From: Pedobacter schmidteae
GTDB lineage: Bacteria > Bacteroidota > Bacteroidia > Sphingobacteriales > Sphingobacteriaceae
Assembly: GCA_945901155.1 (NCBI GenBank)
Contig: CAMDKO010000020.1
Location: forward strand, 1 to 34,191
Direction of reading: 5' to 3'
Length of the DNA: 34,191 bases
Shown piece by piece: positions 7,806 through 12,242 of the stretch. The notes below the pieces were generated by a model, which worked only from the letters and a program-made list of their open reading frames with translations, had not been told where the DNA came from and ran no database searches. A program made the position numbers and the translations under genes. How positions within the stretch are numbered: position 1 is the first letter of the stretch; each line of letters opens with the position of its first letter.

Positions 7806-9509
7806 CTATATCTCAGGAGCTTGGTCTACATTTTTCTGAAACTTTTGCAGTATCACTGCAATCAACATCACCAGCAAACAACCCACTACATTCAGCCATA
7901 AGAAAGCCATAGCATCCATTATCCAGCAGGTAAAGATGATGATTTCTGTAAGGATAGCTGCAATAAATGTTGCGGATCCACCAATCCTTTTCAAGTAGAA
8001 TCCAACAATAAAAATACCGAGTATCGTGCCATAGAACAGTGACCCTAAAATATTAACCGCTTCCAGCAGATTACCCATTTTACTTGCAAAAAGTGCCATA
8101 AAAAGGCTTAATAGTCCCCACATGATGGTAATCCATCGAGATACCGAAAGATATTTTTCATCCGAAGCATTTTGATTGATCAGGCGTTTGTAGATATCCA
8201 CTACGGTGGTTGAGGTCAGTGAATTTAAAGCACTGGCTGTTGAACCCATCGATGCCAAAAAGATGATTGCGATCAGTAGTCCAATCAAACCCTGAGGTAG
8301 ATAGCGAGTTACAAAGCTTAGAAATACGTAATTATTATCATTTGTTTCTGCTTCAGGATCATTCTTTTTCATCAGGTCAACCGCTTGCTGCCTGATTGCT
8401 TTTGTTTTTGTGTCGGCCGCTTCAAGAATAATCCTATGGGCATTTATGGCCTTTTCATCTTTAGCATCAAGGGCTATTTCTAGCTGGTGTATCTCTGCCT
8501 GTTTTTTAATAAATGCATCTGAATAGTCTGCTTTGATTTTTTCAAGATCCTTACTGTATGCACTTTTCTCTAATTTTCCTAATTCATAACTGTTAAAGAA
8601 AATCGGAGGTTGAGTGTATTGATAAAATGTAAAAACAAGTACTCCAATGAGCAGGATTAGGAATTGCATGGGGATCTTCACCAGGCCATTCATCAATAAA
8701 CCCAAGCGACTCTGTGCTACTGATGAGCCTGTGAGATAACGCCCTACCTGACTCTGGTCGGTTCCGAAATAAGATAATTGCAGGAAGAAGCCTCCGATCA
8801 GACCACTCCAAACCGTGTATTGATTATTCCAGTCGAATGAAAAATCAATGGCATTGGTACGCCCCATTTTACCGGCTATTTGAAGGGCTTTCCCAAATCC
8901 GACACTTTCAGGAAGCAGTTGAACGACTAATATTCCAGCAACCAGCAAGCCCGAGAATATGACCGTCATTTGGAGCATTTGAGTATAAGATACCGCCTTT
9001 GTCCCACCATAAACGGTATAAGTAACCACAAGCCCACCAATAAATAGCGTGGTGTAGGTAGTATCAATATCCAGGATCGTTGACAGAATGATGGATGGAG
9101 CATAAATGGTAATTCCGGTTGAAAGCCCGCGCTGTACAAGAAACAAAAATGCCGTCAGTGCTCTTGTTTTTAAGTCAAAACGTTTCTCCAGAAATTCGTA
9201 GGCGGTATAAACTTTTAGTTTCTGGAAAATGGGAACGAACGTAATACAAATCACGATCATTGCCAAAGGCAATCCAAAATAGAATTGCACAAATGACATC
9301 CCGGATGAAAATGCCAATCCCGGAGCAGAAAGAAAAGTAATGGCACTAGCCTGAGTGGCCATCACCGAAAGCGTTACACTATACCAGGGAAATGATTTAT
9401 TCCCAAGTAAGAAACCATCGATATTATTTGTTCCCCGGCTTTTATAAATGCCATAAGCTACAATTATAAATAGGGTTGCAACTAATACTATCCAATCTAT
9501 CCCGCTCAT
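7806..9509 (-). CDS. Sodium:solute symporter (SSS family)
   Basis: This 567-aa protein is a multi-helix inner-membrane transporter of the SSS (LeuT-fold) family, which takes up sugars, sialic acid or other small solutes with Na+. Family features include FLLGNKSFPWY near the N-terminus, ATQASAITF (51-59) in TM1, and the STASALNSLTS stretch (423-433) whose Ser/Thr side chains form the Na2 site in characterised relatives. A hydrophilic, charged, probably coiled-coil segment of about 85 residues (308-393) separates two membrane helices and is not part of the core fold. Its ATG overlaps the stop of the 41-aa small protein (ATGA), and the exported PIG-L deacetylase lies upstream in the same operon, so it may import a product of that enzyme. 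The solute is not predictable. Confidence 0.93.
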   Translation of the reverse strand: MSGIDWIVLVATLFIIVAYGIYKSRGTNNIDGFLLGNKSFPWYSVTLSVMATQASAITFLSAPGLAFSSGMSFVQFYFGLPLAMIVICITFVPIFQKLKVYTAYEFLEKRFDLKTRALTAFLFLVQRGLSTGITIYAPSIILSTILDIDTTYTTLFIGGLVVTYTVYGGTKAVSYTQMLQMTVIFSGLLVAGILVVQLLPESVGFGKALQIAGKMGRTNAIDFSFDWNNQYTVWSGLIGGFFLQLSYFGTDQSQVGRYLTGSSVAQSRLGLLMNGLVKIPMQFLILLIGVLVFTFYQYTQPPIFFNSYELGKLEKSAYSKDLEKIKADYSDAFIKKQAEIHQLEIALDAKDEKAINAHRIILEAADTKTKAIRQQAVDLMKKNDPEAETNDNNYVFLSFVTRYLPQGLIGLLIAIIFLASMGSTASALNSLTSTTVVDIYKRLINQNASDEKYLSVSRWITIMWGLLSLFMALFASKMGNLLEAVNILGSLFYGTILGIFIVGFYLKRIGGSATFIAAILTEIIIFTCWIMDAMAFLWLNVVGCLLVMLIAVILQKFQKNVDQAPEI

Positions 9510-9631
9510 TCAAAAGTTTTAGTGAATAGATAACAGGATACGATCAGAATGGCCAGCCATATGATCAAAAGATAATAAAACTGATTCCAGGTTTTAAAGA
9601 AAGGAATATGTTCCTGATTAGGCTTCTTCAT
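9506..9631 (-). CDS. 41-aa single-span membrane protein
   Basis: A short frame that begins with ATG at 9631 and ends with TGA at 9508-9506. It starts 14 bp inside the end of the 60-aa gene and its stop overlaps the symporter ATG (ATGA), which is a strong sign of a real, translationally coupled gene. The protein has a polar N-terminus (MKKPNQEHIPFFKTWNQ) and one hydrophobic helix at about 18-37, with Lys/Thr/Glu at the end. It fits a small accessory subunit of the transporter, as is known for some SSS carriers that need a tiny membrane partner, but that role is inferred from position. No named family is claimed. Confidence 0.7.
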   Translation of the reverse strand: MKKPNQEHIPFFKTWNQFYYLLIIWLAILIVSCYLFTKTFE

Positions 9632-9800
9632 TCTTCTGAACAACATTGCTCCAGAATCCTGCTGAAAGAAGTCCAAATACTCCACCCAATACCATATGGA
9701 ATACGGTTCCAGACACTACGCATGCTGTAAATACGCCACATAATACAGCTGGAATAATATAATAAATACTATTGCTTGTTTTACTTTTTTCGGTTTTCAT
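9618..9800 (-). CDS. 60-aa two-span membrane protein
   Basis: This 60-residue protein has a Lys/Ser-rich N-terminus followed by two hydrophobic helices at about 12-32 and 35-51, and a charged end (QKNEEA). It is rich in Gly, Val and Ala, as in small helical-hairpin membrane proteins. Its ATG follows the PIG-L stop codon directly with no spacer, and its 3' end overlaps the 41-aa gene by 14 bp, so all four genes of the block are probably translated from one message. No function is recognised. A structural or regulatory role with the symporter is possible. Confidence 0.75.
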   Translation of the reverse strand: MKTEKSKTSNSIYYIIPAVLCGVFTACVVSGTVFHMVLGGVFGLLSAGFWSNVVQKNEEA

Positions 9801-12242
9801 TTATTTTTTATTAGTGATCAAATTTACAAATAATCTATATGCACCGGGTATTCCTGCTGGTAATTCTCTGAAAAATACGAGTGATGTATAAACAAATCTT
9901 CCCTTGCCATATTCTGCAACCAGTAATGATCCATCTTTTGCAGACTCTCCAGAGTCATTCATACTTAAAATACGATTATATTTTGGATCAGCATCAGTTG
10001 TGAAATATAAACCTCTTTCCTGAATCCAGCCATTAAAATCTTTTTGAGTGATCTTATTGGGGTAGTTTAATATTGGATGGTCTTTGTCGAGGAATTTTAC
10101 CACTGCATTTTCATCTGTTACTCGGTCGCGTGATATTTTGAACGGATAGGGTCCTATATTCTGTACCAAAACAGGATTATTTACATTATACTGTACCAGG
10201 AATGTGCCACCCCTGTTCACATAGTCCATAAGTTTTGGCTGCATGAGAGTTAATCTTTCATTAACATTATAAGCCCTCACCCCAGTGATGATTGCATCGT
10301 AATTTGAGAGATCGGCAGTCATTATCTCGGTTTCGGACAGAGTACTAACCTGATAACCAATTTGTTGTAATGACTCAGGGATTAGATCACCCGCACCTGC
10401 AATATATCCGATCTTTTTACCCCCGGTTTTAAGTTCAACCCGTTCTATTTTTGCCTCGGCGAGCGGAAAAAGATTTTGAATTGGAATATGATCATAATTA
10501 ATAATCCGGTGAGCCCGATTATAAGTCTGTCCCGCTGATTGAACTTGTAATGAAAATTTTCCGGATTCAGCCTGATCGCTAGGGCTGATTGTAAACTGAA
10601 CAGTTTTTTCGTCTCCCTTTTTTGGAAGATTAAACACTATTTGTTGCGGTTCAATTTTCCATCCCGGTGGTACCTGCGGACTTATAGTTCCTTGACTTAT
10701 ATTCCGAAAGCTTTTAAGAACAACTGTGATACTTTTGCTGGTGTTCCCCACAAAAACATAAGCCTTCTCTGCAATACTGGAGGTTACTGGCGGAGCAATG
10801 ATCAAAGGCTGATATACCTCACCCCGAACCTGATCAGTATATTTATAAACTGCGGGGCGCTGATATGAAATTTCATGATCTTCAATTCTGAAACTGAAGC
10901 TAATTATTGCTGAAACGGGCTTCTCAGGATGGCCAATTAACAGCTGATCATCGATTTTGAACATGCCCATGGGATGATCTTCGAACAGCCAGTAAGGTTC
11001 TGTGATCTCTTTTGCTAATACACTGCTTTGAATACTTTTTGTTACTCCTTCCTTCAAATCAAAATCCTGTTTTTGTGTGTTTACACTTAGCAATTTAATG
11101 GGGAATTTGGATTGAAGAACAATATCAGAACGTATTTTTATACTGTCTCCCAATGCCTGCACGGCCTGCAAAGTATACGACTCAAACCATAGTCCGGATG
11201 CGGCTGCAATCAGATCTTTTAATTCTTTAGATTTTTGTTCTTTCCAATAACCTTCGGGTAAACTCTCAATAACCTTTAGGATCTTGACCAAGGCAGGCAC
11301 AGAAGCTGACGGTTTATCAGAGTTAAAATTCTGATCCGCGGCATGAATCATTTTCCCGATTTCTTCACCTCCCTGGATACGGCTCCATTGAGAATTTATT
11401 CCTTCAAATAGGTCGTTCTTTGATAAAATTCCTGCTGTATGAATAAAATATTCTACTGCTTGTCCGCGCTGCCGGGCACTTCCAAAGCCCTGACTTTTAT
11501 GATTTGTGCGGCTCTCGGCGGCAATTTCACCGTAGCCTTTCCCCAGTAAAGGGTTAAAGGCACCAACCTCCAGTTTTAATTGATCTTCGGCAGTGGTATT
11601 CATTGAGCCGAAATTGTATGTATTCCAAACTATTCGTCTGGCTTGCCATGCTTCTACATATTTTAATTGTTCAGGAAAACGTTTTGGATCTGCTGCTGCA
11701 ATAAATGCCTCATGGGCTATGATAGCCGATGCGGCATGCTGTCCATGACCGGCACGCGAGTCTTCTGGAAAGCGTGTGATAATTACATCAGGTTTGAACT
11801 TGCGAATTACCCAAACAGCGTCAGCCAGAATTTGTTCCTTATCCCAAATACGAAAGGTTTCTTCAGCATGTTTGGAGAATCCAAAATCAATTGCCCTAGA
11901 AAAAAACTGTTCAGCACCATCGGTTCTTCTTGCAGCAAGTAATTCCTGGGTACGTATTAGCCCCAGTAATTCTGACTGTTCGTTTCCAATTAGGTTTTGG
12001 CCGCCATCACCTCTGGTAAGGGATAGATATCCGGTTCTATATTTTTTTTCTTTGGCCAGAAATGCAAGGAGTCTGGTATTTTCATCATCTGGATGTGCTG
12101 CAATATATAATGCAGAACCCAGTACATTCAATTTTTTGAGTCCAAGTTTGATCTCTGCAGAGTTATACTGCACTGATGTTTGCCCGGCAACAAATAAGGG
12201 TATAAACATTAAAATACTAAATCCTAATTTGCGTGAATTCAT
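9801..12242 (-). CDS. Large exported PIG-L family deacetylase
   Basis: This 813-aa protein carries an N-terminal PIG-L/LmbE domain, a zinc-dependent N-deacetylase fold that acts on N-acetylated sugars and sugar conjugates. The metal motif AHPDDE is at 49-54 and its partner HGQH at 166-169. A signal peptide (hydrophobic 7-19, cleavage near AGQ) places it in the periplasm or on the surface. The middle (about 500-590) looks like an immunoglobulin-type beta domain, and the last 200 residues (from about 605, KKIGYIAGAGD onward) resemble a class I glutamine-amidotransferase/ThuA-like fold. Single-domain PIG-L enzymes are about 230-300 aa, so this is the long form seen in Bacteroidota. It leads an operon with two tiny membrane proteins and an SSS symporter. 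Confidence 0.92.
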   Translation of the reverse strand: MNSRKLGFSILMFIPLFVAGQTSVQYNSAEIKLGLKKLNVLGSALYIAAHPDDENTRLLAFLAKEKKYRTGYLSLTRGDGGQNLIGNEQSELLGLIRTQELLAARRTDGAEQFFSRAIDFGFSKHAEETFRIWDKEQILADAVWVIRKFKPDVIITRFPEDSRAGHGQHAASAIIAHEAFIAAADPKRFPEQLKYVEAWQARRIVWNTYNFGSMNTTAEDQLKLEVGAFNPLLGKGYGEIAAESRTNHKSQGFGSARQRGQAVEYFIHTAGILSKNDLFEGINSQWSRIQGGEEIGKMIHAADQNFNSDKPSASVPALVKILKVIESLPEGYWKEQKSKELKDLIAAASGLWFESYTLQAVQALGDSIKIRSDIVLQSKFPIKLLSVNTQKQDFDLKEGVTKSIQSSVLAKEITEPYWLFEDHPMGMFKIDDQLLIGHPEKPVSAIISFSFRIEDHEISYQRPAVYKYTDQVRGEVYQPLIIAPPVTSSIAEKAYVFVGNTSKSITVVLKSFRNISQGTISPQVPPGWKIEPQQIVFNLPKKGDEKTVQFTISPSDQAESGKFSLQVQSAGQTYNRAHRIINYDHIPIQNLFPLAEAKIERVELKTGGKKIGYIAGAGDLIPESLQQIGYQVSTLSETEIMTADLSNYDAIITGVRAYNVNERLTLMQPKLMDYVNRGGTFLVQYNVNNPVLVQNIGPYPFKISRDRVTDENAVVKFLDKDHPILNYPNKITQKDFNGWIQERGLYFTTDADPKYNRILSMNDSGESAKDGSLLVAEYGKGRFVYTSLVFFRELPAGIPGAYRLFVNLITNKK

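Follow-up and report, generated by a model that had tools for sequence, protein, structure and literature searches.

A 41-codon open reading frame directly upstream of a solute:sodium symporter (SSS) gene in Pedobacter schmidteae is, judged by comparative sequence analysis, a genuine coding gene, and it probably encodes a one-helix accessory subunit of that symporter, to which we infer that it binds. In much of the bacterial literature, SSS transporters are regarded as single-chain machines, and the terms small subunit, accessory and YjcH are all absent from a 2021 review of prokaryotic SSS proteins (PMC7918813). Yet human SGLT2, itself a member of the SSS family, depends on the single-helix subunit MAP17 (PMC10803289).

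Gene organization at the locus

All coordinates are positions in the window, the whole 34,191-nt stretch of P. schmidteae DNA that was analyzed (contig CAMDKO010000020.1, assembly GCA_945901155.1; Table 1). Four contiguous genes lie on its minus strand in the order PIG-L family deacetylase, 60-aa protein, 41-aa protein and SSS symporter, with the PIG-L frame, the first of the set, ending one base before the start of the 60-aa frame. Translation of the 41-aa frame gave MKKPNQEHIPFFKTWNQFYYLLIIWLAILIVSCYLFTKTFE followed by a stop codon, with one transmembrane helix. As the earlier note had claimed, this membrane protein gene overlaps both of its neighbors. Ahead of the assigned start, the frame also contains an ATG at a distance of 15 nt and a GTG farther up; at two related loci, L010 and L011, a single start is possible, and it matches the position of the 41-aa start.

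Table 1 Features of the 41-aa gene and its neighbors in the P. schmidteae window
Feature	Position	Strand	Basis
567-aa SLC5-like transporter of the SSS (solute:sodium symporter) family, presumed partner	7806..9509	-	PF00474 (3.4e-36), TIGR00813, fold match of the L129 ortholog
ATGA overlap of the 41-aa gene stop and the SSS gene start	9506..9509	-	ORF coordinates; retained in 80/80 Sphingobacteriaceae loci
41-aa single-TM protein gene	9506..9631	-	Translation and conservation; TM at about residues 17-36
14-nt overlap of the 60-aa and 41-aa genes	9618..9631	-	ORF coordinates
60-aa two-helix glycine-rich membrane protein	9618..9800	-	ORF; no Pfam or NCBIfam match
813-aa PIG-L family deacetylase with an apparent signal peptide and a weak NEW3-like region	9801..12242	-	PF02585 (2.6e-16)

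The 41-aa frame is under purifying selection

A scan of species genomes yielded 80 symporter orthologs, which share 66–94% identity in their best segment and almost all carry labels of Sphingobacteriaceae genera. At every one of these 80 loci, a frame ending in ATGA was open at the same place, encoding 30–49 aa with the common pattern of roughly LPPFVKxWxQFYxLLxxWLxxLIxLFYxFTxYFE. Among the closest relatives, the 34 codons outside the overlaps gave a dN of 0.095 and a dS of 1.11 (median dN/dS ~0.085), and columns varied at 30 of 34 third codon positions, compared with 16 first and 15 second positions. The two other frames over the gene contained many stops and gave dN/dS values of 1.0 and 1.6. 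Synonymous change is dominant, and the 41-aa frame is under purifying selection. The synonymous excess that the earlier note had proposed to look for beside SSS genes was therefore found, and none of the 80 loci had a broken frame between two retained neighbors. That the frame is coding is settled by its being open at all of these loci, by this low dN/dS and by its membership of a family present phylum-wide.

Conserved residues lie on one face of a single helix

An alignment of 190 distinct small-protein sequences centered on one hydrophobic helix, in agreement with the single-helix membrane protein seen in the P. schmidteae sequence alone. Family members are 30–50 aa long, with a mean Kyte–Doolittle hydropathy of 2.07 over residues 17–36. 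Tyr19 is invariant (190/190), while Trp15 and Ile30 are conserved in 93% and 89% of sequences, respectively; together with L22, L26, C33 (a position at which 81% of the family have Phe), T37 and F40, these residues form a conserved stripe along one face of the helix. Conservation showed a periodicity peak at 100 degrees per residue, which none of 20,000 permutations reached (p = 5e-5). One-sided conservation of a single-pass helix is the signature of specific membrane packing, as expected for a helix lying against a partner; such a face could, however, also mediate homo-oligomerization or contact with a different protein.

The flanks of the helix differ in charge (+1.34 over the last eight residues of the N-side flank versus +0.32 on the C-side), with the N-side more positive in 123 sequences and less positive in 25, which by the positive-inside rule suggests an N-inside orientation. 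Some copies from Pedobacter and Sphingobacterium lack the LPPF segment and comprise only 30 aa, and the helix is therefore the essential core.

The small gene tracks one lineage of SSS symporters

We searched 395 Bacteroidota genomes with a profile built from 41 members. Of 45 matches at E<1e-3, 44 directly adjoin an SSS gene, and in most of these cases a PIG-L gene lies further upstream; the sole other match is internal to a 579-aa frame, and no SSS homology occurs near it. For the reverse test, symporter orthologs were identified in 143 of the 395 genomes, and upstream DNA was examined for 134 of them, comprising 107 in clade A (~44–100% identity to the window symporter) and 27 in clade B (38–43%). 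The small gene lay directly upstream of the symporter in 101 of the 107 clade A genomes, and 17 of the 27 clade B genomes gave a small-gene match at E<1e-3. Six clade A genomes keep the symporter with no small-gene match, five being clear losses (L224, L232, L237, L239 and L240) and one (L241) possibly having a divergent one-helix ORF, which indicates that the small gene is not essential. The small protein thus accompanies a single SSS lineage; most of that lineage has retained it, and a few branches can do without it. Although P. schmidteae has five SSS genes, its genome carries the small gene once.

In roughly half of the clade A relatives, a gap of 0–88 nt takes the place of the ATGA. In addition, the ATGA lock is weak evidence when taken by itself, since ATGAG arises in any SSS gene whose protein begins with Met-Ser (AGN). 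The nested overlap, which the earlier note had put forward as an argument, is thus not where the strength of the case lies.

Further arrangements were observed around this junction. At L237, L239 and L240, where the small gene is absent, it is the PIG-L gene whose end lies in the symporter ATGA, and the overlap is retained. At L099, L101 and L112, the stop of the small ORF is part of a CTGA instead of an ATGA, and the symporter has its first ATG or TTG 60–90 nt downstream; a CTG start or a shifted symporter start is possible at these loci. Three Pedobacter loci (L030, L047 and L054) carry an extra ORF, which we take to resemble GxxExxY proteins, between the PIG-L and 41-aa genes, and they retain both the small gene and the ATGA overlap. 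Among the clade B loci that the profile did not match, seven (L244, L245, L246, L248, L253, L265 and L266) have a divergent one-helix ORF in the same position, the first five being of the ESYIRTLIRVFAAQGIIMLILWLLHAIYN type. At L126, L130, L153 and L116, also in clade B, a related one-helix ORF ending in FNLP or FNQP lies just upstream of the SSS gene. The DNA read at L126, L130 and L153 contained no PIG-L homology, and L116 had no full PIG-L neighbor there; the association of the small gene with SSS therefore appears older than its link to PIG-L.

The gene for the 60-aa protein is separate and less widely retained

By a crude criterion, a glycine-rich two-helix ORF was present at about half of the 80 loci and absent from nearly all Pedobacter loci, and the Pedobacter loci that lack it still keep the 41-aa gene. 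The 60-aa protein is thus a separate gene and does not form a fixed pair with the 41-aa protein. The proposal that this symporter has small membrane partners, in the plural, is supported in part, through the 41-aa protein, which is tied to the symporter phylum-wide and has a one-faced helix, and does not carry over to the 60-aa protein as its fixed companion. Glycine-rich, glycine-zipper-like ORFs of ~50 aa occupy the same place in other Bacteroidota families.

Predicted fold of the symporter

Profile matches and predicted fold both identify the downstream gene product as an ordinary SSS/SLC5 family symporter. The fold was predicted for the ortholog at L129, where the small gene and the symporter share a reading frame with a TAG and a short spacer between them; the TAG was read as Gly so that both could be predicted as one chain. 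In this joint model (pTM 0.88), helix 11–35 and the symporter were confident and the spacer (residues 38–51) had pLDDT <50. Fold comparison restricted to the symporter part (residues ~50–616) matched the sialic acid symporter SiaT (5nva; Z 41.7, rmsd 2.1, 464 aligned), followed closely by NIS, SMCT1 and SGLT. The model aligned with human SGLT chains only to about residue 552, which is consistent with the absence of TM13, the MAP17 contact in SGLT2. Covariation between the small protein and the symporter (194 pairs, Neff ~86) ranked F40–S39 and T37–A220 high, but these ranks changed with regularization. We found no natural fusion of the small protein with the symporter and, by eye, no extra terminal helix in symporters that lack the small gene.

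Alternative explanations

That the frame is open by chance and has no product is scarcely credible: short ORFs are common and an ATGA follows from a Met-Ser start, but conservation at all 80 loci, the low dN/dS, the invariant Tyr and the phylum-wide profile matches refute it. A coding frame might still matter chiefly as a translational coupling device, in which its translation brings ribosomes to the symporter start and the peptide itself hardly counts. The ATGA overlap at all 80 Sphingobacteriaceae loci and in about half of the clade A genomes would fit such a device, as would the three loci without the small gene at which the PIG-L gene ends in the same overlap. We nevertheless regard it as quite unlikely, given the strong purifying selection on amino acids, the one-faced helical pattern and the retention of the small gene where the overlap is absent.

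If the peptide does matter, its partner could be the 60-aa protein, the PIG-L enzyme or only the 41-aa protein itself, and the common order PIG-L, 60-aa, 41-aa, SSS leaves room for the first two. However, the 41-aa gene persists without the 60-aa protein in Pedobacter, and the three clade B loci with no PIG-L homology in the DNA read still have the SSS gene, which is the constant neighbor; this reading is very unlikely. Finally, the protein might be a small membrane regulator of the symporter, acting as an inhibitor or as an adaptor for turnover by a membrane protease, in the manner of MgtS, MgtR or SgrT-type proteins. Small transporter regulators are usually made from separate, condition-specific genes, and the 41-aa gene is locked in the symporter operon, an arrangement better suited to a fixed subunit. 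The loss of the small gene in some lineages favors a regulator, and so does its match in size and single helix to known small transporter regulators (PMC10710835); we consider this role unlikely, yet deserving of some weight.

A putative accessory role resembling that of MAP17

In the reading that we favor, an accessory subunit of the symporter, ribosomes finishing the small gene would restart on the overlapping symporter start, so that both proteins are made together. Two papers describe coupling of termination and reinitiation at short overlaps (PMC6728339, PMC10666635), and according to one of them, two genes that overlap by a short stretch often specify subunits of heteromeric complexes (PMC10666635). 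The small helix would then insert in the membrane, probably N-inside by its charges, and its W-Y-L-L-I-F-T-F face may pack against the symporter exterior, aiding folding, stability or localization rather than forming the transport path. An accessory role fits with the small gene being dispensable in a few lineages. The deacetylase, apparently secreted, would presumably make or release the symporter substrate, which is the least certain step of this scheme.

MAP17 is an auxiliary subunit of SGLT2 that packs beside TM13 as part of a fixed scaffold and is proposed to support folding, stability or localization (PMC10803289). The best reading, by analogy, is that the small protein acts on its symporter as MAP17 does on SGLT2, with a presumed effect on transport. 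Like MAP17 (PDZK1IP1) with SGLT2 (SLC5A2), it is a small single-TM protein tied to an SLC5/SSS transporter, and it is conserved and encoded with the SSS gene. In contrast, MAP17 is an animal protein; the packing of the 41-aa helix is deduced, and its docking site would differ because the symporter apparently lacks TM13. The two proteins appear unrelated in sequence as far as tested: the family profile gave no match at E≤10 among all PDB chain sequences, which include SGLT2–MAP17 complexes, although a remote relation between single helices could escape a profile search.

The 41-aa protein is thus probably an overlooked small subunit of a Bacteroidota sodium-coupled transporter. We are more doubtful about a broader possibility, namely that one-helix subunits are needed phylum-wide by many Bacteroidota SSS symporters for assembly or stability and form a bacterial counterpart of MAP17. 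If so, single-helix partners would be old and recurrent in SLC5-type transport and would have been missed because their genes are only 30–50 codons long. A conserved partner of this size across the phylum would offer a small, genetically tractable bacterial model for why SLC5 proteins recruit single helices, and heterologous expression or structural work on these symporters might yield poor protein if the small gene is left out.

Relation to known families

Pfam and NCBIfam scans of the 41 members gave only scattered sub-threshold matches to unrelated single-helix families. No model searched in either collection covers the family, which should be added to genome annotation, and no description of it was found in the open-licence papers searched. 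The family thus appears new, and the kind of thing it represents, a small accessory helix of a transporter, is already known. KdpF is a short single-helix protein bound to a larger transporter or enzyme, and so are AcrZ and MgtS (PMC10710835). All three are like the 41-aa protein in size and single helix; they belong with other transporter families, and no sequence relation was found.

The candidate families DUF4212 and DUF485 were rejected. DUF4212 (PF13937), a small subunit-like protein encoded beside SSS genes, is present in Bacteroidota genomes. It was not listed in the Pfam scan, and hhalign gave a non-significant probability of 2.3% (score 14.7 versus 11.5–13.3 for reversed profiles); it has two helices in ~80 aa, compared with one in 30–50 aa here. 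Its helix 1 aligns with the 41-aa helix in a sensible register (the W and the following stretch), which is suggestive though non-significant. DUF485 (YjcH; PF04341) did not appear among the 25 families that an hmmscan of the 41 members against Pfam listed at E≤1, its hhalign probability of 2% was similar to that of reversed controls, and its two TM helices span ~90 aa. YjcH with the acetate permease ActP resembles the present pair in that a small membrane protein gene lies directly upstream of an SSS gene, but YjcH has two helices in ~100 aa, accompanies another SSS subfamily and shows no detectable sequence relation. P. schmidteae also has an ActP-like SSS gene (L084, contig C48) with an upstream gene for a 99-aa DUF485 protein of the YjcH type (PF04341, 2.5e-28), and this known kind of small SSS partner is thus encoded in the same genome as the 41-aa gene.
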